Assembly: GCF_007990505.1 (NCBI RefSeq)
Contig: NZ_AP019822.1
Coordinates: forward strand, 1,674,001 to 1,738,000
DNA length: 64,000 nt
DNA from: Pseudoleptotrichia goodfellowii
GTDB taxonomy: Bacteria; Fusobacteriota; Fusobacteriia; Fusobacteriales; Leptotrichiaceae
Direction of reading: 5' to 3'
The position numbers were made by a program, and so were the translations under genes. Under the pieces are notes generated by a model. It did not search any database. It saw only the letters and a program-made list of their open reading frames with translations, and was not told the origin of the DNA. Position 1 is the stretch's first letter; each line of letters begins with the position of its first letter. This document shows, piece by piece, positions 6,771 to 18,694 of this stretch.

Positions 6771-7985
6771 TTATTCAAGAATACCCAAAAAGCTCTTCCC
6801 GTTTTCAGGCATTTCGACTTTAAAGTAATCCGCGACCGTTGCTCCGATATCGGACATTGTCTCTCTATGACCTATATTTATTCCTTCCAATCTTTTTTTA
6901 TAAATCAGTATCGGTACATTTTCTCTTGTATGTTGCGAATGCCCTATTGTCGGGTCATTTCCATGATCGGCAGTAATTACAAGTATGTCCTTTTCATTCA
7001 GTTTTTCGATGATTTTACCGATATATTTATCACTTATTTGTAGTATCTGTGCATATCTTTCAGCATTTTCAGCATGTCCTGCAAGGTCCGTTTCCTGAAT
7101 ATTCACAGCTATAAAGCCTTTTTTCATCTTATCTATTTCAGAAAGAGTAATATCAAATATTTTTGAAGTGTCTACAAGATTTATGAAACTTTTTCCCTGT
7201 TCGTTAAAAACAATATCCGCTACTTTTCCTACCAGTACTACAGGTATTCCTGCTTTTCCCAGTATTGTCGGAACCTGAGTTTCAGGATCTATTCCATATC
7301 CTAAATGTCTTACCATATATCCTTTTTCATAAACTTTAGATTTAGGAGCATTTATTCCTATATATTTCCCTTCTTTTTCTTCGGCAGCAGCCTTTATACT
7401 TTCTATTGTAGCCTCTGTTCCTCCGAACACTATTACTCTTTCGACTTCTACTATTTTTCTTACGATTTGAGCTATTTTCAGTTCTTCTTCAAAAGAAATC
7501 TTCTGAAAAGTAGTTGTTACATTGTACACCTGTCCAAGATCGGTTTCCAGATTATCTCCTACAGCTACACAATCATTTACCCATAAATACTTAACTTCTT
7601 TACCCACCTTTTCGACTTTGTATCCTTCTTTTGTCAACTCGTCAAAAACCCTGTCAATATAATAACTGAAGGGGGCTATGAGCGGTTTTACAGGCCGTGT
7701 TCCCATTATTTCCTGATGTCCCAAAAATGTATCTCCTCCGTGATGCATAAGTTTTGCTCTTCCGAACACTGCCTTGGGATTCATTTTCATTTTGCCATAA
7801 TCTTCGCCCAAAGCATTCATCAAGCCTAATCTTTCAAGATTTTCAAGTTTCAAATCGGAAACCTTGTCTATTATATGTTTACAAGTATTTGCTCCGTAAT
7901 CTCTCGGTCTCACTTCCAAAACATCGTCCATATAGCCTACTCCGTAACTGTCCAGTACAATAACTATAAATCTTCCCTGCTCCAT
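6771..7985 (-). CDS. yhfW: YhfW-like phosphopentomutase-family metalloenzyme
   Basis: 404 residues of the alkaline-phosphatase superfamily, closest in pattern to phosphopentomutase DeoB. Seen: N-terminal FIVIVLDSYGVG (first metal ligand Asp), GGDTFLGHQEIMG with the nucleophile-type Thr at residue 86 (DeoB has the similar GKDT-GHWE-MG), and C-terminal VITADHGNDPTIGHSQHTR with metal-binding Asp, His and His. Position in a yhfX-yhfS-php-yhfT-yhfU-yhfY-yhfZ cluster argues for the YhfW subgroup, of unknown substrate, rather than housekeeping DeoB. It is the last gene of the operon; RBS GAGGT precedes the ATG. A sugar-phosphate mutase or phosphatase reaction is inference. Confidence 0.85.
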   Translation of the reverse strand: MEQGRFIVIVLDSYGVGYMDDVLEVRPRDYGANTCKHIIDKVSDLKLENLERLGLMNALGEDYGKMKMNPKAVFGRAKLMHHGGDTFLGHQEIMGTRPVKPLIAPFSYYIDRVFDELTKEGYKVEKVGKEVKYLWVNDCVAVGDNLETDLGQVYNVTTTFQKISFEEELKIAQIVRKIVEVERVIVFGGTEATIESIKAAAEEKEGKYIGINAPKSKVYEKGYMVRHLGYGIDPETQVPTILGKAGIPVVLVGKVADIVFNEQGKSFINLVDTSKIFDITLSEIDKMKKGFIAVNIQETDLAGHAENAERYAQILQISDKYIGKIIEKLNEKDILVITADHGNDPTIGHSQHTRENVPILIYKKRLEGINIGHRETMSDIGATVADYFKVEMPENGKSFLGILE

Positions 7986-8006: not shown

Positions 8007-9170
8007 TTAATCTTTTATCTGTTCTCCCAATGACGTGTATTTCCCTACTATTTCAGGCTTTCCTTTCTGAATTCCTTCAACTAAAACAACCGTCGATCTT
8101 GTTACAAACATTTGAGCTCTGAAACAACTCAAAACAGTATCGCCTATATTTCCTTCTTTTTTCATTTCCATATAGTAATCAATATTTTCAGGTTCCATTT
8201 TATTTACTTTGGTTTCATAACATGCGTTACAATCAGTTCCTACCAAAGCCTTTCTTATATTTGAACGACGATAATGCCCGCCACCGTAAAAATACCCTTT
8301 TTCTCTAAAATTATGAGAAATTTCGGAAACGTATACATATGCCGGTATTTCTTCTATGTCTTTATCTCCTGCTATTGGTATCGTTCCCGTCAATGAATGT
8401 CCCGGCTCTCCGTGAGTACCTCCTAATTGGGATATTAATTTAATGTTTTCTATAGAAGTTACCGAAGGCATATTAATTTGAGCAATTTCTTTACCGAATT
8501 TTTCATTAAAAATTTTCTTTACTTCCATTATTGTTTTTGCATTTTCAGTAGGTTTTATACTTAAAGTTTCTTTATCGTATAAAAAACACGGAAAAGAAGT
8601 CAATCCGTTTATATTTGCACCTTTTAAATTCATTATTTTCTCAATTTTTTTTTCTATATCCTTACTTTCAAATCCTGCTTCCTGCCCGGGATATATTTTA
8701 GAATTGCTGTCAGTAACTTTCAGCATAATATCTTGAATCTTTCCCGACTTTAAAGCTACTTCGGATATTTCTTTCGCTTTGTCATAAGAATACACCGTTA
8801 TAATCTCGGGACTACTTTTAACAACTTTTTCAATCATATTTTTCGGTATTTGTACCAAATGTCCGACATTTCCTATTTTCAAATTATGATTTATAAACAG
8901 TTCGGCTTCTTTAAAATCAACTACTACTGCTCCCGAGTAGCCTATTTCTTCAAGTTTTTTTGCTAAATAGGGATTTCTCCCTATCTGCTTTGTCATATAA
9001 TACAGTTTTATATTATGCTTCTCAGCTTCTTTAAGTATCTTTTTTGCATTATCCGAAAATGTATCTACATCGATTATATAACTGTCAGGCATAACATATC
9101 CCTTTTGATGAAACTGAAATGCTGTATTTATAAGCTTTTCATTTCTTCTTTTTAATGTATCCAAAAACAA
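8007..9170 (-). CDS. yhfX: YhfX-like PLP-dependent alanine racemase-fold enzyme
   Basis: 387 residues, fold-type III PLP enzyme. Seen: YIIDVDTFSDNAKKI followed by LYYMTKQIGRNP, where Lys61 is the expected PLP-binding lysine; GTHGEPGHSLTGT and GGGHYRRS further on are typical of YhfX. E. coli YhfX has no established reaction; relatives are amino-acid racemases and decarboxylases. The start is a TTG at 9170, supported by AAAGGAG 9 nt upstream; it begins 6 nt after the yhfS stop, so translation is probably coupled. Together with YhfS it makes a pair of PLP enzymes in one operon, suggesting chemistry on an amino acid or amino sugar (inference). Confidence 0.86.
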   Translation of the reverse strand: MFLDTLKRRNEKLINTAFQFHQKGYVMPDSYIIDVDTFSDNAKKILKEAEKHNIKLYYMTKQIGRNPYLAKKLEEIGYSGAVVVDFKEAELFINHNLKIGNVGHLVQIPKNMIEKVVKSSPEIITVYSYDKAKEISEVALKSGKIQDIMLKVTDSNSKIYPGQEAGFESKDIEKKIEKIMNLKGANINGLTSFPCFLYDKETLSIKPTENAKTIMEVKKIFNEKFGKEIAQINMPSVTSIENIKLISQLGGTHGEPGHSLTGTIPIAGDKDIEEIPAYVYVSEISHNFREKGYFYGGGHYRRSNIRKALVGTDCNACYETKVNKMEPENIDYYMEMKKEGNIGDTVLSCFRAQMFVTRSTVVLVEGIQKGKPEIVGKYTSLGEQIKD

Positions 9171-9176
9171 GTTGTA

Positions 9177-10280
9177 TCACTCCTTTGTTACCTTTTCGTA
9201 TGCTTTTTCCAATATTCTTATTATCGTTTCGGCTCCGCTTCTGTTGGGATTTATTCTTATCATTCTTTCTTTCAAAGTCGGATCTGTTTTTAAAAATGTT
9301 CCCGAAACTTTGTAAAATAAAGGAGGAATTTCATATTTTGATTCAGCCCCTACAGGATTCGGTAAAGCCCCTAATGTTTGAGCTGCTTCTATTATTTTTT
9401 CAGCTACATTTTCCTCAAATTCTACCAACAATACTTTCGATTGGGCATTTGCCAAAAATGCTTCTTTTATGTACGGATATTTTTTCTTGTTGTTCAGTCT
9501 TTCTACCGATTTTTCATTCTCCTGTGCCTGTATTGCCAAACTCACAGGGGCATAGACAAGTCCTCTTAATACTTCCATTGCTTCGTATCCCTGAACTTGT
9601 CCTCCGCCGGAATAATTAAGTTTTTTCACTTTTTCAACAAATTCTTTTTTACCGACTAAGCAGCCTATTCCTACAGGACCGAGCAATTTAAATACCGAAA
9701 ATGCGGACATTTCTGCTCCAACTTCACACCCTATTTTATCCACTTTCATAGCGGCATAATTATCATCTGTCAATATTACTATATCTTTTCTTATTTCCTT
9801 AATTTTTTTTATTACTTCTGCCAAATCATAACTGTCGTCAGGCTTTTGTCTTGTATGTTGCAAAAGACAGAATTTCAGTTCTTCATCTTTCAAAACTTCG
9901 GAAATTTTACTCAAATCGTTAAAATCATATTTTATAATTTTCAGATTCATACTTTTCAGATTTACTTCAGTAGTCGGGTAAACAGGGGCATCATGTACCA
10001 AAATTTTCTCATTTGGCACGATTCCTGCCAAAATTCCCCATCTTATTGCCTGAGTTCCTGCTCCTCTTGTGAACATACAATCTTCAGCATTGAAGAACTC
10101 GGCTATAATTTTTTCGACTTTTTCAGTTTTCAGCGGTCTGTTTGTTCCTTTTTTTACTCCCAAATCTCCTAATTCCAGAAACTCTTCTCCTGACATATTT
10201 CGCGTGATAATATCCACAAGTCTGAATTGCTTTTCCTGTGCTTCACTAATCGAAATTGATTTTAAAGGGTATGTTTTCAT
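9177..10280 (-). CDS. yhfS: YhfS-like PLP-dependent aminotransferase-fold enzyme
   Basis: 367 residues, fold-type I PLP enzyme of the aminotransferase class V/cystathionine lyase group. Seen: FTRGAGTQAIRWG (cofactor phosphate binding region, about residues 70-82), ILTDDNYAAMKVD with the pyridine-N Asp at about 172, and SAFSVFKLLGPVG with the Schiff-base lysine at about 198. The C-terminus contains the substrate-carboxylate Arg candidate in ERMIRINPNRSGAE. E. coli YhfS is uncharacterised. RBS CGGAGAA precedes the ATG. It sits between yhfX and the exported serine hydrolase gene, all on the minus strand. Confidence 0.86.
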   Translation of the reverse strand: MKTYPLKSISISEAQEKQFRLVDIITRNMSGEEFLELGDLGVKKGTNRPLKTEKVEKIIAEFFNAEDCMFTRGAGTQAIRWGILAGIVPNEKILVHDAPVYPTTEVNLKSMNLKIIKYDFNDLSKISEVLKDEELKFCLLQHTRQKPDDSYDLAEVIKKIKEIRKDIVILTDDNYAAMKVDKIGCEVGAEMSAFSVFKLLGPVGIGCLVGKKEFVEKVKKLNYSGGGQVQGYEAMEVLRGLVYAPVSLAIQAQENEKSVERLNNKKKYPYIKEAFLANAQSKVLLVEFEENVAEKIIEAAQTLGALPNPVGAESKYEIPPLFYKVSGTFLKTDPTLKERMIRINPNRSGAETIIRILEKAYEKVTKE

Positions 10281-10299: not shown

Positions 10300-11535
10300 C
10301 TAATTTTCTTTAAAGGTTTCGCCTACTATATTCATTATTTCTCTTGCATAAGACCATGTAGATTTATATTTTGTGTCCTTATCTACACCATAATTTTGTT
10401 TATTTGTCAGTATTATTATCTGCATTTTATTTTTCATATCATAAACAATATGAGTTCCTGTAAAGCCCGTATGTCCTACAAAATATTCATCGGAAAACCT
10501 TCCCATATAACCGCTTTCTCCTCCTCCTCTGTTTATTTCCCAACCATATCCATGTCCAAAAGAACTTTGAACACTTGTAAACATATCTATAACTTCCTTC
10601 GAATAAATTCTTTTACCTTTATAAATACCACCATTTAGCAATACTTCTCCCAAAATATATAAATCTTTCACATTAGAAAATAAACCTGCGTGTCCTGCAA
10701 CCCCTTTATTGGCATAAAAGGAATTTCCATCATTTACTTCGCCTACTAAAGTATACATTCTCCAATTTTTGAATTCTTCAAATCTTTCATTTACTTTATA
10801 ACCGAAATTATCATCTTTTATCATTCTTTCTTCAAAAGGATTTCCGTTTGATGTTGCAGCTATATTTTTTGTTATTCCTTTTTTCTTAGGATTAAATTTT
10901 GTATTTTTCATTCCTAAAGGCAAATAAATATTTTTTTCAAGGTAATCATCTAACTTTTGTCCTGTTACTTTTTCAACTATAAACCCCAGTATTATAAACG
11001 AAAAATCACTGTATTTTCTTTCAGTTCCTGTTTTATATTCAAGTTTCATATTTTTTATATATTCCAATGTTTCTTTAGGATTTTTCGAATGATAGTAAAT
11101 AGGCTGCCAAGGTGTCAATCCTGATGTATGAGTTAACAAATCTTTTATTTTTATATTTTCTTTTCCGTTTTTTTCAAAACCTTTAACATACTTGCTTACC
11201 TTATCTTCTACATTTATTTTCTTTTCAGAACATAATTTCATAATGGCCTGTGTTGTTCCCATTACTTTTGTTAGTGAAGCTAAATCAAAGATTGTATTTT
11301 CATTCATTAATAAAGGTTTTTCCATTTTCTTATCTCTATCAAATAATTGTGCATAACCAAAAGCTTTCAAATAAACGATTTTTCCATTTTTGGAAACTAA
11401 TACTACCGATCCCGGTATAGTTTCATTTTCCATATATTTTTTTGTAACTTCATCTATTTTATTTAAATTTTCAATGTTTTCAGAAAAAACATTAAAACTC
11501 AACATAAACAAAATGATTAATAATATTTTTCTCAT
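10300..11535 (-). CDS. Exported beta-lactamase-fold serine hydrolase inside the yhf cluster
   Basis: 411 residues. The first 18 (MRKILLIILFMLSFNVFS) form a signal peptide with a likely cut before ENIENL. Mature part: class C beta-lactamase/DD-peptidase/esterase fold with the SxxK motif SLTK (Ser87, Lys90), KYSDFSF as the Tyr motif near residue 174, and HTGFTG as the KTG equivalent near residue 363. Such enzymes include D-aminopeptidases, AmpH-like peptidases and esterases; the HTG variant is common in non-beta-lactamase members. The E. coli yhf cluster as I recall it has no such gene, so this addition hints that an extracytoplasmic ester or D-amino peptide feeds the pathway (inference). Confidence 0.83.
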   Translation of the reverse strand: MRKILLIILFMLSFNVFSENIENLNKIDEVTKKYMENETIPGSVVLVSKNGKIVYLKAFGYAQLFDRDKKMEKPLLMNENTIFDLASLTKVMGTTQAIMKLCSEKKINVEDKVSKYVKGFEKNGKENIKIKDLLTHTSGLTPWQPIYYHSKNPKETLEYIKNMKLEYKTGTERKYSDFSFIILGFIVEKVTGQKLDDYLEKNIYLPLGMKNTKFNPKKKGITKNIAATSNGNPFEERMIKDDNFGYKVNERFEEFKNWRMYTLVGEVNDGNSFYANKGVAGHAGLFSNVKDLYILGEVLLNGGIYKGKRIYSKEVIDMFTSVQSSFGHGYGWEINRGGGESGYMGRFSDEYFVGHTGFTGTHIVYDMKNKMQIIILTNKQNYGVDKDTKYKSTWSYAREIMNIVGETFKEN

Positions 11536-11549
11536 AACACTTACCCGCC

Positions 11550-12425
11550 TTATTTAAAAAATCTTTCAGGATTACTTTTCAGCATTTTTTCAATCGAATC
11601 GTCTTTTATTCCTGCTTCTTTCAACTTCGGAATAAAAACATCAAAAATATAATTATATCCTATTCCTCCGTTGTATTTCATATTGGATTTTCTCGTAATA
11701 TCAAGGGATAAAAACACTCTGTCAATCAAATCCCTTTTTTCTATTTCTTTCAGCATTTCTACACGTATATCATCAGCTAAATAGTTATTCTTTCCTATTG
11801 TGTCAAATTCCACATACACTCCGTTATACAGCATTTCCAGAATATATTCTACATTTCCTGTCAAATCCACATGTCCTATTACAATTTTATTCAAATCGAC
11901 TTTATATTCTTTAAAGAGCTTTACCTGTTCGTGACCCATTGTTCCTAAGGATGTATGAGTGGTAATAGGAACTCCTGTTTCCAAATGAGCAATTATCGCA
12001 GCTTTAAAAACTTTCAATTCAGTTTCCGTTATTATTTCTTTGCTTGACCCGATCTCTCCTATTATTCCCGCTTTTTTCCCCGTACTGTTTATACCTTCGA
12101 GAATATCTTTTTTCATTATTTCTGAAAGTTCTTTTTCATTTTTTTCGTAAACAAACTCGGGGTAAAAAGGCTCTTTATAAAATCCCGTTGCACAGATGAC
12201 ATTTATACCCGACTTTTCGGAAACTTCCTGTATGTAACTTATATCTCTTCCTATTCCTATATTTGTTACTTCGACTACATTCCGAACACCGTTTTTGTAA
12301 AGTTCCTTAAATTCCTCTATTGTTTCATTCTTACAGTCTAGTCTGCAATCATCCAACTTTTTTATTCCCGATAAATCTATAAAAATATGTTCGTGCATCA
12401 AAGTATATCCATTTTTTAATGACAT
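11550..12425 (-). CDS. php: Phosphotriesterase-homology protein (Php/YhfV)
   Basis: 291 residues, close to the 292 of E. coli Php. Amidohydrolase-superfamily barrel with binuclear metal site: MHEHIF (His11, His13), GEIGSSKEI supplying the bridging acidic residue as in Php rather than a carbamylated Lys, THTSLGT, VIGHVDLTG (His ligands) and SLDITRK (catalytic Asp). E. coli Php has no assigned substrate; relatives are lactonases and phosphotriesterases. RBS GGAG lies 7 nt before the ATG. It stands between the transporter yhfT and the serine hydrolase. A lactone or cyclic ester substrate is inference. Confidence 0.87.
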   Translation of the reverse strand: MSLKNGYTLMHEHIFIDLSGIKKLDDCRLDCKNETIEEFKELYKNGVRNVVEVTNIGIGRDISYIQEVSEKSGINVICATGFYKEPFYPEFVYEKNEKELSEIMKKDILEGINSTGKKAGIIGEIGSSKEIITETELKVFKAAIIAHLETGVPITTHTSLGTMGHEQVKLFKEYKVDLNKIVIGHVDLTGNVEYILEMLYNGVYVEFDTIGKNNYLADDIRVEMLKEIEKRDLIDRVFLSLDITRKSNMKYNGGIGYNYIFDVFIPKLKEAGIKDDSIEKMLKSNPERFFK

Positions 12426-12443: not shown

Positions 12444-13781
12444 TTATTTTGCTGCAACAGGTATTACATATAAATGAAGCAGATACAATATATTCAGTAT
12501 TATTCCGAACAGAATAGTAGCCACAGGTCCTACTGCCATATCTACCAAAGGTTTTTTAGAAGTTTTATTTAAAAGATAAAATCCGCTCACAAATAAAAAT
12601 CCTAATCCGTTTGATCCCGCCATTTCATTTGCTGCAATCATTCCTCCTACAAGCAGCGAAACTTCAAGGACCTTTGTCATAGCTGTTCTTATCTGATCTC
12701 CACACGCCTTAACTCCTGGAAATCTGTCAAGACTTTTTGCTATTAATTCCAGTAATAATATTTCCACAGCCAGAATAGCCGCTCCTAAAACAAAAGAGAT
12801 AATCGGATTTTTAACAAAAATTCCCACTACAAATACCAGAGTCATTCCTGCAGGTCCGTATACTCCTGTCGTAATTGCAGTAGTAGCTACCAAAGGAACA
12901 AATCCTATACTTCTTGCAAGGGCAACCAGTCCTGCTTCAAAGTTTTTGGCATCTCCGCCTGCGGTATCTTTCAAAGTTGATGCCAACAGTTTTAAAGATA
13001 TAGGATCCCCTGCAACAACTCTCAAACTGCATGCAGCAGCTATCAATCCTCCCATTATTGAAAGGGGAATTATATTTTTCTTTACTCTTGCAACCCTTGC
13101 AGAAAATATTCCTACAAGCATTTCATTGGAATTGGTTTTTTCTGTTTCTTTATCAAATATAGCAAAAATAAGCATTATAACAACACTCACAAGTAAAGCC
13201 ATTCCGTCCGGATTCAAAGTAATGCTTATTTTTTCCGCAACGGGTATTTTACCGAACACAGCTATGATCTGTCTTACAAGTAAAGTAGCTATCAATGTAA
13301 ATGCACCTTTTTTCGTTCCGTACTGGTATCCCACAACAAGTGCAGGAAACACTGCAAATCCCACAATTATAGGTGCTCCTACCTTAGCAAGACTCGGCAA
13401 AAAATCAATCGGCATCTTTTGGAATATATTTATGACTATTTCAAGTCCGTATACCAGTCCTACTCCGTATAAAGCTCCTATTATTCCTGAGAGTGCCAAT
13501 CCTACATTGTTTCTAGGAGTTGAAGTTCCTATTATGTCCGTTCCGAGTAATATACTATGTATCAGTATAATAGTCGATCCTATAGAAAAAGGTATACCGA
13601 ATCCTATTACAAGTCCGAATGACAATGCGAAACTTGTTGCCGCCAGAGCTTTTCTGTCCATTCTTCCTTCTAAAAATTCAGGCACCATAGGTCTTAATCC
13701 GTCATTAAATACTGCTACTCCCAAATTTGCCAATATCGACGCAAATCCGCTTAATAACGCACTAATCAAAAATTTCTCCAT
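12444..13781 (-). CDS. yhfT: YhfT-like integral membrane transporter
   Basis: 445 residues with about ten to twelve hydrophobic segments, Gly/Ala-rich, without ATPase or PTS motifs. The N-terminus (FLISALLSGFASILANLGVA) is a membrane segment rather than a cleaved signal. Features such as GFGIPFSIGSTIILIHS and GAPIIVGFAVFPALVVGYQ suggest a secondary transporter; position between php and yhfU matches YhfT of E. coli. It is presumably the inner-membrane importer for the pathway's substrate (inference). AAAGGAGG lies 7 nt before the ATG. A 285-codon frame on the opposite strand is a compositional shadow. Confidence 0.85.
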   Translation of the reverse strand: MEKFLISALLSGFASILANLGVAVFNDGLRPMVPEFLEGRMDRKALAATSFALSFGLVIGFGIPFSIGSTIILIHSILLGTDIIGTSTPRNNVGLALSGIIGALYGVGLVYGLEIVINIFQKMPIDFLPSLAKVGAPIIVGFAVFPALVVGYQYGTKKGAFTLIATLLVRQIIAVFGKIPVAEKISITLNPDGMALLVSVVIMLIFAIFDKETEKTNSNEMLVGIFSARVARVKKNIIPLSIMGGLIAAACSLRVVAGDPISLKLLASTLKDTAGGDAKNFEAGLVALARSIGFVPLVATTAITTGVYGPAGMTLVFVVGIFVKNPIISFVLGAAILAVEILLLELIAKSLDRFPGVKACGDQIRTAMTKVLEVSLLVGGMIAANEMAGSNGLGFLFVSGFYLLNKTSKKPLVDMAVGPVATILFGIILNILYLLHLYVIPVAAK

Positions 13782-13812: not shown

Positions 13813-14163
13813 TTATTTTATATATTCTGCAACTATTCTTATAACCTGTTCTGCAGCCTGCGGTGTAAATCCGAAAGCGATTTTTCCCGAATTTACTTCT
13901 TCTTTTATTTTTTCCTCATCTAAAATATTTCCGGGCATAGCCAAAGTTGCACATTTATCCGCTCCTATTATTGCGATTGCCATTGCCAAAGCACCTCCGC
14001 CTCCGGTATTACATGCACCGAAATAATAATCAGCATTTCCGACTTTTACATCCATTGCGGCATCAATATCACTTTTTACAGTTATTTCCGACTCGGGTAT
14101 ATATTTTTTCAGCAAATTGTTTACATTTTCTTTATCTATCTGTCCGCCTACAACTATTTTCAT
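13813..14163 (-). CDS. yhfU: YhfU-like DUF2620 protein
   Basis: 116 residues, soluble, matching the YhfU/DUF2620 family: MKIVVGGQIDKENV at the N-terminus, a Gly-rich CNTGGGGALAMAIAIIG in the middle and GFTPQAAEQVIRIVAEYI at the end. Its alternation of short strands and helices and size recall PTS EIIB-like or nucleotide-binding proteins, but no phosphorylatable Cys in a P-loop is present and its function is unknown. It is followed 31 bp later by yhfT, with which it may form a transport complex; a PRD-domain gene lies just upstream. RBS AAAGGAG is good. Confidence 0.84.
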   Translation of the reverse strand: MKIVVGGQIDKENVNNLLKKYIPESEITVKSDIDAAMDVKVGNADYYFGACNTGGGGALAMAIAIIGADKCATLAMPGNILDEEKIKEEVNSGKIAFGFTPQAAEQVIRIVAEYIK

Positions 14164-14178
14164 AATACTCCTTTCTGT

Positions 14179-14541
14179 TTATTTATTCTCTTCCAATAAC
14201 AATAAATTTACCAAAATGTATTTTTTCTCTTCTTCAGGTAATTTTTCAATAAAAATATTTTTTTCAATATCTTCATATATTTTTTCTATTTTATCCAGTT
14301 TATCCGAAACCAGAACTTCTTCAAACACTGTTTTATCGATATTATTTACATTTTCATTCTGCTTTATCCTTTTTAGAGCCATTGATAAATGTGTTACAAA
14401 CATTGCTCCGTTTTCTTCAGTTAAAGTAATTTTCCATTTTTTATCCAGATGCTCTATTAAAGAAATCACTTTATTATAGATTTCCTCATCTATCACCTCG
14501 GAATTTTTAAGTATATCCAATCTGAACTTTAATTTTTCCAT
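14179..14541 (-). CDS. yhfY: YhfY-like PRD-domain protein
   Basis: 120 residues forming a single all-helical PRD (PTS regulation domain) with the conserved His in MFVTHLSMALKRI (about residue 50). There is no DNA-binding domain. PRDs are usually phosphorylated by HPr or EII to control antiterminators and activators; a stand-alone PRD next to yhfU and yhfZ could tie the pathway to PTS status (inference). RBS AGGAG precedes the ATG. A symmetrical AT hairpin separates it from yhfZ. Confidence 0.83.
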   Translation of the reverse strand: MEKLKFRLDILKNSEVIDEEIYNKVISLIEHLDKKWKITLTEENGAMFVTHLSMALKRIKQNENVNNIDKTVFEEVLVSDKLDKIEKIYEDIEKNIFIEKLPEEEKKYILVNLLLLEENK

Positions 14542-14601
14542 CTATCGAACTCCTGATTTTCTTCATTTTACAATATTCATTTTTTTGAAAATTTAAACAA
14601 A

Positions 14602-14625
14602 AAATTATAATTTACATTATAATTT
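14602..14625 (-). terminator. AT-rich hairpin between yhfZ and yhfY (possible attenuator)
   Basis: AAATTATAAT (14602-14611) and ATTATAATTT (14616-14625) pair around a 4-nt loop, with short A/T runs on both sides. It could reduce read-through from the regulator gene into the structural genes. The stem has no GC pairs, so its strength is doubtful. Confidence 0.4.
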
Positions 14626-14639
14626 TTTGAAGCCGATTA

Positions 14640-15557
14640 TTAATATGTCGGCAATATCTGATTTGTAAGAACTTTTTGCTGTATTTCTCTTATATAATCT
14701 ACATCTATAATTTTTCTTGACAATTTTCTCAAATTATCATTTCTTCTGCTGATTACCAGCACAGCTTCATTAGCTTTTTTGAGAATTCTGCTTTCAGGCA
14801 GTTCTTCGTATTCCATTTTGATACTTTTTTCTTCGATTTCATCATAATTCCAAATGATTCCGTCTACAATTTTATTTTCAAGCAATTTTAATGTTTCATT
14901 ATAATCAATTTCCACAAATTCATAATTTGAATCTCCAAGAAATTCTTTAGTTAAAAACTCCTGATCTTCAGAATTTCTATCTACTCCGATTTTAACTATC
15001 TTTTTTACTCCCGGTGCTTTTAAAAGTACATGTTTTGAAACATAACTATTTGCCCCGAATTCAAATACCGATTCGATATCTCCGTTTCTTTCTCTTTCTA
15101 TTTCATAAGCAAGTCTTGAAACAACTGCAAAGTCATATATACCTTTCCTTAAAAGACTCAATCTCACTCCCGAGCCGCTCATATAAGCAAAATAATAATT
15201 CAGATTATAATTCTGGAAATTATTTTTTATACCTGTTGCAAGACCTTCGTATCTTTTGGAATAAGGTAACGGCATTACTCCCACTAAAAATCCTAAATCA
15301 CTTTTTTCCAAAAGTATTTCATTGTTGATTTCTTTGACAAATGAACCTAATACCCCTCTTTTATCAAGCTTAATTGCTCCTTCATTCTGTAAAAGAACAA
15401 AAGCCCTTTGAATTAACCCTACCGAAATTCCGTATTTTTCAGAATATTCTGTCACAGGAGCAATTCTTTCTCCCACTTTTAAGAACAATAGTTCTCTCGC
15501 CACAAACAATACTGAACGGTTTTTTTTGTTCAATTTTTTTTCTTCGCTATTATTCAT
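14640..15557 (-). CDS. yhfZ: YhfZ-like GntR-type regulator
   Basis: 305 residues. N-terminal winged helix (about 15-80): RSVLFVARELLFLKVGERI, then VTEYSEKYGISVGLIQRAF as the recognition helix and GAIKLDKRGVLGSFV as the wing. The C-terminal part (about 85-300) looks like a periplasmic-binding-protein-type effector domain (VGVMPLPYSKRYEGLATGI), as in the YhfZ family. ATG at 15557 has AAGGTGGG 7 nt upstream; a longer reading from 15599 would run through the palindrome. It is the first gene of the cluster and its own promoter contains a 13-bp inverted repeat, so it probably autoregulates the operon. Confidence 0.84.
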   Translation of the reverse strand: MNNSEEKKLNKKNRSVLFVARELLFLKVGERIAPVTEYSEKYGISVGLIQRAFVLLQNEGAIKLDKRGVLGSFVKEINNEILLEKSDLGFLVGVMPLPYSKRYEGLATGIKNNFQNYNLNYYFAYMSGSGVRLSLLRKGIYDFAVVSRLAYEIERERNGDIESVFEFGANSYVSKHVLLKAPGVKKIVKIGVDRNSEDQEFLTKEFLGDSNYEFVEIDYNETLKLLENKIVDGIIWNYDEIEEKSIKMEYEELPESRILKKANEAVLVISRRNDNLRKLSRKIIDVDYIREIQQKVLTNQILPTY

Positions 15558-15585: not shown

Positions 15586-15653
15586 ATACAAATTTTCAAA
15601 AAAATGAAAATTTGTATTCAATATAATTATACCTTAAAAACGGAAAAAGTCAA
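15586..15653 (-). promoter_or_regulatory. yhfZ promoter with perfect 13-bp palindromic operator
   Basis: Minus strand: -35 TTGACT (15648-15653), 16-nt spacer, -10 TATAAT (15626-15631). Just downstream, covering the expected transcription start to about +33, ATACAAATTTTCA (15586-15598) and TGAAAATTTGTAT (15605-15617) are perfect 13-bp inverted arms around six A. Such placement fits a repressor roadblock; YhfZ is the obvious candidate (inference). Confidence 0.8.
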
Positions 15654-15721
15654 GAGATTTAATGCAAAAATTACACTCTTTTTTAAATGAAAAATTAAGC
15701 ATCAGTGCTTTAAATCTCTTG
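15651..15721 (-). terminator. Stem-loop between yhcH and yhfZ, overlapping the yhfZ -35
   Basis: CAAGAGATTTAA (15651-15662) pairs with TTAAATCTCTTG (15710-15721), with a smaller AGCA/TGCT hairpin inside. On the minus strand it follows yhcH and is trailed by ACTTTTT. It probably ends the nanE-PTS-yhcH transcript; its last bases overlap the yhfZ -35 hexamer. Confidence 0.5.
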
Positions 15722-15760
15722 AAAAATATATTTTTTTATTTTGAAATAACATTTTTGAAA

Positions 15761-16219
15761 CTAAACTGTATTCACATCTATTTTATAAACTATCTTTTTT
15801 ACAGGAATACTTTCTTCCGATTTTATTCCCGGCATATGTCCGTCTTCAGGATAAAGAATGAGAACATCTCCGTCTTCTAATAATACTCTGAATAATTCAG
15901 GACCTTCATGTCCTATGAAATCTTTTTCTTCATCAACTTTAGTCTTTTTCAGATTACGTATATTATTGAAAGCTATGTATTCTCTTCCTTTAATCATAAT
16001 CTGAACATCAATATATTTCAGATGACTTTCCCACGAACATTCATTTTCGGGTTTTGTATTATAATTTCCGACATTCACTTTAATATCCGTTCCGGGAACA
16101 TCATAACTTCCGGATTCATATTCTTCAAAATTATTTTCTTTTGTAAATTCTATACATTTCTGTATTTTTTCCGAAAGACTTTTATTTTGCAACTCATCAT
16201 TCAGATTAGTAAAAATCAT
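15761..16219 (-). CDS. YhcH/YjgK/YiaL family protein (sialic acid cluster)
   Basis: 152 residues, cupin-like fold of the YhcH/YjgK/YiaL (DUF386) family. Seen: EYESGSYDVPGTDIKVNVG, WESHLKYIDVQIMIKG (metal-binding His/Asp region) and LILYPEDGHMPGI (second His). Members sit in sialic acid operons (E. coli nanC/yhcH locus) and act as anomerases for sialic acid or related sugars, improving delivery to the lyase. The start codon overlaps the stop of the PTS gene in an ATGA, so translation is coupled. The context with nanE supports amino-sugar use. Confidence 0.88.
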   Translation of the reverse strand: MIFTNLNDELQNKSLSEKIQKCIEFTKENNFEEYESGSYDVPGTDIKVNVGNYNTKPENECSWESHLKYIDVQIMIKGREYIAFNNIRNLKKTKVDEEKDFIGHEGPELFRVLLEDGDVLILYPEDGHMPGIKSEESIPVKKIVYKIDVNTV

Positions 16220-17832
16220 ATTTTATATTTCTCCCTTATTTTGTTTTTATATGTTTCTGCCTGAGTTCCGTAAACTATCTGCACACCTTTTCCTGATCTT
16301 ATAACTCCTTTAGCCTGTAATTCTTTCCATTTTACATCATCAGAAACTGTTGAAGGATCTTTTACAGTTACTCTTAATCTTGTTATACATGCATCAATAT
16401 TTTCAATATTGTCTATTCCTCCTAAGGACTCTACTATTTCATCAATAAATTCTTTTTTTCCTTTAGATTCGTTATAATCTTTTCTTGTATAAAGTTTATT
16501 TTCCGAATCTCCTCTACCCGGAGTAGGAATGTTAAATTTCAATATCAATGTTTTGAATATGAAATAATAAGCTACTGCATACACAGGTCCTAATATAAGT
16601 ATCCAGTAATACGAAGTTTTTGCAGGTCCCTGTAACAATCCGAAGAATGTAAAGTCTATTATTCCTCTTGAGAAAGTAATTCCTACTGCTACGTTTAATA
16701 CATACATTAACATATATGCAAGTCCTTCAAGTATTGCATGAATTACATACAATGCAGGTGCTACGAACAAGAACGTAAATTCAATAGGCTCTGTTATTCC
16801 TGTAAGGAATGAAGTCAATGCTGCCGATATCAATATTCCTTTTACTGCCGCTTTATTTTTGTCGTCTGCAGTTCTGTACATTGCAAGTGCTGCCGCAGGT
16901 AATCCGAACATCATAGGAAGGAATCCTCCTGTCATTGTTTTTGTAGCTGCTGCACTGAAATGTTTTACTGACGGATCAGCCAATTGTGCAAAGAATATAT
17001 TTTGCCCTCCTGCAACCATTTTTCCAGCAACTTCCTGATAACCTCCAAGTTGAGTATACCAGAACAAAGGATAAATTGCATGGTGTAAACCGAATACATT
17101 TAATATTCTCATTGTAAATCCGTAGAAGAATGTTCCGACTGCTCCTGTTTTCGCGAATATTTCTCCGGCTTTTACAATTCCCATGAAAACTGTAGGCCAT
17201 ATAAACGGAAATATTACTGCAACCGGTATAAATAAAATTATTGTCATTACAGGAACAAATCTGTTCCCACTGAAAAATGCCAAATAATCAGGCAACACTT
17301 TATCAGAAAATTTATTTGTTATCGCTGATGCCACTATACCGCATATTATCCCTCCGAATACTCCTGTCTGTAATGTGAATATTCCAAGTTCTTTAGCATA
17401 CAATGCCGCAGTTCCTCTCGCAGCTGCTTCGCTTAATCCTTTTCCGATCAAAGCATCATAAGTTACCGAATCAGGCGTTATCCCCTGAAAGCTTAACACT
17501 GTTCCTATCACTGTGTGAAATAACAGGAATCCTAAAACTGCCGATAAAGCCGCAGTTTCTTTATTTTTATTTGCAAGTCCTATTGCCACCCCTACCGCAA
17601 ACAGCAAAGGTAAATTTGCAAACACGAACAATCCTGTATTGGAAAACAGTTGCATTAAGTAATTTAAAGGTGTTCCTTCACTTAAAAACGTCAAATTATA
17701 CGTTTTAATTAATACAGGATTTGTAAATGAACCTCCTACTCCTAAAAGTATTCCTGCCATAGGTAATACTGCTATAGGAAGCATAAATGCTCTACCTATT
17801 TTTTGTAATGTTGAAAAAAAACTGTTTTTCAT
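16216..17832 (-). CDS. PTS EIICB of the glucose/GlcNAc family, probably for ManNAc or a related amino sugar
   Basis: 538 residues. EIIC domain (about 1-420): FMLPIAVLPMAGILLGVGG, LHHAIYPLFW and the GITEPIEFTF motif of glucose-family permeases. EIIB domain (about 455-538): NIDACITRLRVTVKD with the phosphorylated Cys. No EIIA domain is attached, so a separate EIIA-Glc-type protein must phosphorylate it. The pairing of an EIIBC gene with nanE is as in the pneumococcal nan locus (from memory). No clear Shine-Dalgarno precedes the ATG at 17832, and a 73-nt structured repeat starts 20 nt upstream in the leader, so translation may depend on RNA folding (inference). The substrate is uncertain. Confidence 0.88.
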   Translation of the reverse strand: MKNSFFSTLQKIGRAFMLPIAVLPMAGILLGVGGSFTNPVLIKTYNLTFLSEGTPLNYLMQLFSNTGLFVFANLPLLFAVGVAIGLANKNKETAALSAVLGFLLFHTVIGTVLSFQGITPDSVTYDALIGKGLSEAAARGTAALYAKELGIFTLQTGVFGGIICGIVASAITNKFSDKVLPDYLAFFSGNRFVPVMTIILFIPVAVIFPFIWPTVFMGIVKAGEIFAKTGAVGTFFYGFTMRILNVFGLHHAIYPLFWYTQLGGYQEVAGKMVAGGQNIFFAQLADPSVKHFSAAATKTMTGGFLPMMFGLPAAALAMYRTADDKNKAAVKGILISAALTSFLTGITEPIEFTFLFVAPALYVIHAILEGLAYMLMYVLNVAVGITFSRGIIDFTFFGLLQGPAKTSYYWILILGPVYAVAYYFIFKTLILKFNIPTPGRGDSENKLYTRKDYNESKGKKEFIDEIVESLGGIDNIENIDACITRLRVTVKDPSTVSDDVKWKELQAKGVIRSGKGVQIVYGTQAETYKNKIREKYKI

Positions 17833-17852
17833 GTGCTATCAGACTGATTCAC

Positions 17853-17925
17853 GAGGGCTCATTGCCACCCTCATACTCCCGCTACCGGCGTTCTAAGCGA
17901 CTGCGTCGACTCCGAAAATGCGGGA
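17853..17925 (+). repeat. Structured interspersed repeat, copy 1
   Basis: 73 nt, nearly identical to 59650-59721. Order: GAGGG-CCCTC hairpin (17853-17872), CTCCCGCTACC, then a CGAC-GTCG hairpin, TCCGAAAATGCGGGA closing a CTCCCGC/GCGGGA outer stem. It lies between nanE and the PTS gene in the antisense sense relative to them. The A at 17867, where copy 2 has G, slightly shortens the first stem. Confidence 0.8.
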
Positions 17926-17998
17926 ATAGAAAATGTAACTTTTCTATTTTACCAGTCTTTTTCACTCCTTTCTTTTTTAGTATTTTTATTTTGTTTTT

Positions 17999-18694
17999 TT
18001 AGTTTTCTACTGCTTTAACAAATCTTTGGGCTATTTCAAGAGGTCTTGTTATTGCTCCTCCCACTACTACCGCATGAGCTCCCAATTCAAGCATTTTTTT
18101 CGCCTGTTGCGGTTCGTGTATTTTCCCTTCAGCGATTACAGGTATATCCAACTTTTTTGACAATTTTTCCACGAGTTTGAAATCAGGCCCGTCAGTTTTT
18201 TCGCTGTAAGGTGTGTATCCGCTGAGAGTCGTTCCTACCATATCTACTCCTGCTTTTTCGGCATTTACTCCTTCTTCAAATGTGGAAATATCTGCCATCA
18301 ATATTATATCAGGATATTTCTCTTTTATTTCTTTTATAAAACCGTTTACAGTTTTCCCGTCACCTCTTTCTCTCATTGTACAGTCAAGAGCAATTATATC
18401 CGCTCCCGCTTTTACCAAAGTATCGATTTCTTTCATTGTAACAGTTATATATTGGGAAAATCCTTCATATTCTTTCTTTATCAATCCTATAACAGGTAAA
18501 TCTACCGTTTTTTTTATTTCTTTCACATCTCTTTCCCCGTTTGTCCTTATTCCGGCTGCTCCCGCCCTTTTTGCAGCGACAGCCATAAGAGGCATCATTG
18601 TATCATTTTCAATATACAACGGTTCTCCCGGCAATGCCTGACATGATACTATCAGTTTGCCTTTTAATTTTTCAATTATTTCTTTTTTATTCAT
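17999..18694 (-). CDS. nanE: N-acetylmannosamine-6-phosphate 2-epimerase
   Basis: 231 residues, usual NanE length. It interconverts ManNAc-6-P and GlcNAc-6-P in sialic acid catabolism. Seen: [66 protein letters not shown] and [11 protein letters not shown], covering the beta-barrel phosphate and catalytic Lys regions of the family. It heads the nanE-PTS-yhcH operon from a promoter whose upstream sequence is shared with the sugar ABC transporter operon. The product enters the GlcNAc-6-P route via deacetylase and deaminase encoded elsewhere. Confidence 0.94.

Follow-up and report, generated by a model that had tools for sequence, protein, structure and literature searches.

What is the perfect palindrome that follows the yhfZ promoter of Pseudoleptotrichia goodfellowii, and which protein would read it? 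We addressed this in a window of 64,000 nucleotides (contig NZ_AP019822.1, positions 1,674,001 to 1,738,000), the whole stretch of DNA analysed here. Our reading, to which we assign a probability of about 0.88, is that the palindrome is the operator O1 of a local repressor, YhfZ, which would keep the yhf operon and the yhfZ gene itself repressed as long as no ligand is bound. The sites, their placement, their conservation, their covariation with a protein helix and the lack of further genome matches to the flanked motif can all be seen in the sequence itself.

The gene yhfZ is the first gene of the yhf operon (yhfY, U, T, S, X, W and php), which is organised in the window as follows:

14640–15557, minus strand: yhfZ, putative repressor with an HTH_41 winged helix and a YhfZ_C ligand-binding domain
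14179–14541, minus strand: yhfY, free-standing PRD domain protein
13813–14163, minus strand: yhfU, DUF2620
12444–13781, minus strand: yhfT, membrane protein
11550–12425, minus strand: php, phosphotriesterase-family hydrolase
10300–11535, minus strand: PBP4B-like serine hydrolase, extra relative to the E. coli operon
9177–10280, minus strand: yhfS, PLP enzyme
8007–9170, minus strand: yhfX, alanine-racemase-like
6771–7985, minus strand: yhfW, phosphopentomutase-like

A mechanically assigned start of yhfZ, TTG at 15599, was rejected, and the start was placed at the ATG at 15557. The PBP4B-like gene is located between php and yhfS, where the operon of E. coli K-12 has no such gene, and its hydrolase may point to a substrate of peptidoglycan or amide type. 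Directly upstream of yhfZ, the region 15761–18694 (minus strand) harbours an N-acetylneuraminate-anomerase-like gene (YhcH family), a PTS transporter and, judged by sequence, a nanE-like epimerase gene. The end of a YhcH-like coding sequence also precedes yhfZ in both same-genus relatives (L007 and L008). Between the two operons, a 17-nt inverted repeat (94%) with a 39-nt loop at 15650–15722 (minus strand) gives a strong RNA fold (-22 kcal/mol, z -4.25), and its 3' arm includes the yhfZ -35 box. This hairpin probably terminates the upstream sialic-acid-type operon; other hairpins occupy the same position in both same-genus relatives.

The palindrome and the promoter of yhfZ, P1, comprise the following elements:

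15586–15617, no strand assigned: putative operator O1, ATACAAATTTTCA-N6-TGAAAATTTGTAT, 13-bp perfect inverted repeat
15626–15631, minus strand: P1 -10 hexamer TATAAT, consensus match, with the same order of -10 and operator in 15/15 Fusobacteriota
15648–15653, minus strand: P1 -35 hexamer TTGACT of the near-consensus promoter

The first-pass annotation had described a 13-bp perfect palindrome right after the -10 of a near-consensus yhfZ promoter, starting at about +2. Both arms and the six-base spacer, which reads AAAAAA on the plus strand, were found exactly there, and the promoter (TTGACT, 16 nt, TATAAT) has 11/12 consensus matches and ranks best among 13 promoter-like sites in the region. 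O1 begins 9 nt downstream of the P1 -10, which would place it at about +2 to +4, given a transcription start 6–8 nt past the -10. The site overlaps yhfZ's own promoter, as in autoregulated local repressors. With up to three mismatches allowed, the O1 32-mer matches once in the window, with 0 matches in 100 shuffles, and once in the 2,290,729-bp genome.

A second candidate operator, absent from the first-pass annotation, was detected in the gap between yhfZ and yhfY:

14572–14593, no strand assigned: putative operator O2, AATATTCA-TTTTTT-TGAAAATT, in the yhfZ-yhfY gap
14604–14609, minus strand: candidate P2 -10, TATAAT, consensus match
14626–14631, minus strand: candidate P2 -35, TTCAAA, weak, a consensus match only

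O2 lies directly after this TATAAT and 30 nt before yhfY; P2 as a whole is a weak consensus match. The search of the 2.29-Mb genome for the flanked motif AATWTTCAWWWWWWTGAAWATT, at one mismatch or less, revealed two matches, O1 and O2, and the reversed control gave 0. YhfZ is predicted to be a dedicated local regulator, because the flanked motif is present at these two sites and nowhere else in the genome. Eight other genomic places with TTTTCA-N6-TGAAAA were rejected as regulon members: all but one overlap an ORF, and the sole place outside an ORF has a mixed, GC-containing spacer.

Absence of conservation before yhfZ orthologues had been named as a result that would speak against the operator, and this check was run. 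PF14503 is present in 15 of 98 Fusobacteriota genomes, and TTCA-W6-TGAA was found between the -10 and the yhfZ start codon in 15/15 of these orthologues, at the same place, roughly 10–20 nt downstream of the -10. In O1 this core corresponds to positions 15595–15608. The 15 genes with the core span 8 genera and 2 families, the DNA around the core is widely divergent, and the YhfZ proteins are 32–71% identical to that of the window. Of the palindrome itself, the 14-bp core and the AT-rich flanks are shared, and the full 13-bp arm is peculiar to the P. goodfellowii genome. On the mRNA strand the spacer is T6 in P. goodfellowii and A6 in most relatives; this flip is immaterial, as a two-fold symmetric DNA site would allow. 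A looser motif pattern, applied to the 98 genomes, was too permissive for a comparison of genomes with and without yhfZ. The sequence TTCAAAAAAATGAA recurs within the yhfZ coding sequence of L013–L016 and L006, in the same codons (N-F-Q-K-N-E) and about 615–635 bp past the operator at the promoter. This copy may serve as an auxiliary operator, or it may just reflect AT-rich codon choice.

An alignment-based profile search of genome contigs yielded 65 loci, which belong to Bacillota, Coriobacteriia, Brachyspira and gammaproteobacteria, and searches by order and class groups added further yhfZ loci. A scan of genome contigs for YhfZ with a single protein and a DNA search of plasmids returned no match. 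The site is also present at most yhfZ orthologues outside Fusobacteriota, in two spellings. TTCA-W6-TGAA occurs in Fusobacteriota, Enterobacterales including E. coli, Photorhabdus, Pasteurellaceae and Brachyspira, and the sister spelling AATATACA-W6-TGTATATT (TACA-W6-TGTA) occupies the same places in Bacillota and Coriobacteriia. Both spellings emerged from a class-neutral scan that used T-any-C-A halves with a six-base spacer. Across 110 loci and at the strict threshold, two places were counted, upstream of yhfZ and in the gap that follows the gene, and the site expected for the helix class occupies at least one of them in 29/31 loci with V/L/I and in 58/79 loci with R/N/Q in the recognition helix, versus any operator hit in 8/327 control windows. 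Fourteen of the 110 loci have no site even at the looser threshold, including two with a V-type helix, the Vibrio locus L027 (7 of 8) and L106. As judged from these sequences, this is one predicted switch, in two spellings, at the yhf operons of five bacterial phyla.

A chance palindrome in an AT-rich genome would have some room here: perfect 13-bp arms with a loop of up to 12 are rare but not unique (three centre/loop counts in the 64-kb window), and the bare core TTCA-N6-TGAA is expected 3.7 times in the window. The conservation of the core at a fixed place in 15/15 orthologues and across phyla, together with two flanked-motif matches in the genome versus 0 in the control, leaves this explanation a negligible probability.

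In E. coli K-12, the putative operators before yhfZ are TATCTTCA-AATTCC-TGAAGATA and AATATTCA-ATTTAC-TGAAAATT, 24 bp apart from centre to centre. Five divergent E. coli strains share the TTCA/TGAA cores at both sites but differ in the spacers. Two or three putative operators lie near one another in L026, L031, L035, L036, L065 and L068, and such clustering suggests cooperative binding. The record of L028 (MT836239), named Bacteriophage sp., contains a YhfZ gene followed by a TACA-type site; the record carries an UNVERIFIED flag, and its DNA may come from a bacterium. The Erysipelotrichaceae genome of L032 (G1336) encodes two YhfZ proteins.

The YhfZ protein of the window scores 326.2 bits against the NF041241 equivalog (cut-off 260; residues 22–319 of the translated ORF), 228.9 bits against PF14503 and 55.3 bits against PF14502. 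Its structure model consists of a confident winged helix and a periplasmic-binding-protein-like sensor, and the recognition helix comprises residues 46–58 of the model, with S45-V46-G47 at its start. The C-terminal domain matches the solved YhfZ fragment 2OZZ, the family itself being known and the structure of its sensor domain solved. Next come periplasmic binding proteins whose ligands are methionine, taurine/2-aminoethylphosphonate and other amino acids. That the ligand of YhfZ is small and either amino-acid-like or anionic is a reasonable guess, no more.

The spelling of the operator follows the recognition helix of YhfZ. Among the 76 loci with a shuffle p of 0.02 or less, V, L or I in the helix goes with TTCA in 29/29 and R or N with TACA in 46/47, and the varying operator position holds no base beyond the two spellings. 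The exception, L061 of Paenibacillus sp. BSR1-1, combines an Arg-type helix (GRG) with a TTCA-type site upstream of yhfZ. The residue that covaries is the middle one of the S-V-G / A-R-G triplet, where the recognition helix starts, and its column has the top mutual information among the 16 HTH columns tested. In a profile alignment to GntR proteins it falls on the SR of their recognition helix. We take it to be the equivalent of FadR Arg45 and AraR Arg63, the step from the alignment to FadR numbering being our own reading. FadR Arg45 and AraR Arg63 contact bases (PMC4494728, Table 1). At the FadR-Arg45 position the TACA class has Arg, and the TTCA class, to which the window protein belongs, has Val, Leu or Ile.

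A quick tree, for which only the C-terminal domain was used, places the two helix types one change apart. Since this is a single switch, the sequence counts are not independent trials, and the Fisher p of 4e-20 for helix and spelling was set aside as evidence. The match of helix and operator is best described as consistent co-evolution, one event seen many times and not many independent events. YhfZ itself likely reads the operator, because the spelling follows its recognition helix and the covarying residue aligns with a base-contacting Arg. An evenly balanced proposal goes further: a two-letter code, set mainly by one residue (Val/Leu for TTCA, Arg/Asn for TACA), would govern the yhf pathway across five or more phyla, and exchange of residue 46, perhaps with its neighbours, would switch the specificity.

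The operator might belong to a regulator other than YhfZ, and YhfY, encoded in the same operon, is also a putative regulator. However, YhfY, 120 aa long, consists of a bare PRD domain, domain searches found no DNA-binding domain in it, the spelling tracks the YhfZ helix across phyla, and the flanked motif is confined to this locus, as for a local regulator; another reader is therefore highly improbable. In an RNA-level alternative, the yhfZ mRNA would start with a hairpin that stabilises the message or controls translation, and a 13-bp stem is predicted for the P. goodfellowii transcript (-14.3 kcal/mol, z -4.2). Elsewhere, however, the stem is reduced to a few A-U pairs while the TTCA/TGAA letters are kept. 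The element keeps its sequence, with no pair-by-pair compensation, it covaries with a protein helix, and many genomes have it only before the next gene. A role as RNA is accordingly very unlikely.

The reading of the palindrome as a YhfZ operator, already put forward in the first-pass annotation, is supported by its conservation before orthologues and by a spelling that follows the YhfZ recognition helix. In the proposed mechanism, binding, dimerisation, repression rather than activation, and ligand release are steps that we infer. A YhfZ dimer would place one recognition helix on each half-site (TTCA/TGAA). With an AT-only spacer between the half-sites, their centres are separated by 10 bp, or about one helical turn, so that the dimer could bind one face of the DNA. 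O1 would cover the P1 transcription start, and O2 would likewise lie behind P2, before yhfY. Bound at both, YhfZ would block RNA polymerase or promoter clearance at P1 and P2, and in this way keep yhfZ and the yhf operon repressed. Its release is expected once a small molecule occupies the periplasmic-binding-protein-like C-terminal domain.

YhfZ might instead bind and activate, or only autoregulate without controlling the remaining operon, as some relatives with a site solely before yhfZ would allow. Sites downstream of a -10 usually repress, and this is where O1 lies. A second site is present before the next gene in the window and in many relatives, and several loci, among them Bacillota, lack the site before yhfZ but have one in the gap after it. 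We regard activation or autoregulation only as unlikely.

As a repressor, YhfZ would work like the GntR local repressors of the FadR/HutC type (FadR, the DNA-binding domain of AraR, YvoA/NagR). It is likewise a winged helix of GntR type, has a palindrome at its own operon's promoter, and carries its putative specificity residue at the position matching FadR Arg45 and AraR Arg63. The sensors differ, being a periplasmic-binding-protein-like fold in YhfZ and FCD or UTRA in FadR/HutC-type proteins. The GntR operator consensus is NyGTNxACNy (PMC4494728), which TWCA-N6-TGWA, with half-site centres one turn apart, does not fit. Against the Pfam GntR HTH (PF00392, cut-off 27), YhfZ of the window reaches 12.7 bits, that of Clostridium 23 and that of Olsenella 26. 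YhfZ would be a variant of the GntR kind, because it misses the Pfam cut-off and its operator departs from the consensus. A close described counterpart is Shigella/E. coli YhfZ (PDB 2OZZ, NF041241), of the same equivalog family and operon; E. coli has the same operator core in two tandem sites before yhfZ, unlike P. goodfellowii, with one site before yhfZ and one before yhfY. LysR-type regulators such as OxyR and BenM share the winged helix and the PBP-like sensor, and full-length LysR chains are among the fold matches, but their HTH family differs from that of YhfZ. LysR proteins typically recognise T-N11-A sites that lie upstream of the promoter, and they often activate.

In the open-access papers searched, we found no YhfZ operator, regulon or ligand. 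The open literature on yhfX, yhfT, DUF2620 and 2OZZ likewise gave nothing on function, and no paper assigning a function to the yhf pathway. The palindrome had been proposed as a handle on the effector of this pathway, which is fair as to the tool, although the sequence evidence names no effector. The yhf operon is widespread and includes that of E. coli K-12, and a defined operator turns the question of what the pathway senses into a binding assay: a compound releasing YhfZ from O1 would be a candidate pathway metabolite or its mimic. The operator motif also permits mapping of the yhfZ regulon in any genome, and the two spellings would offer a clean system for protein-DNA specificity.
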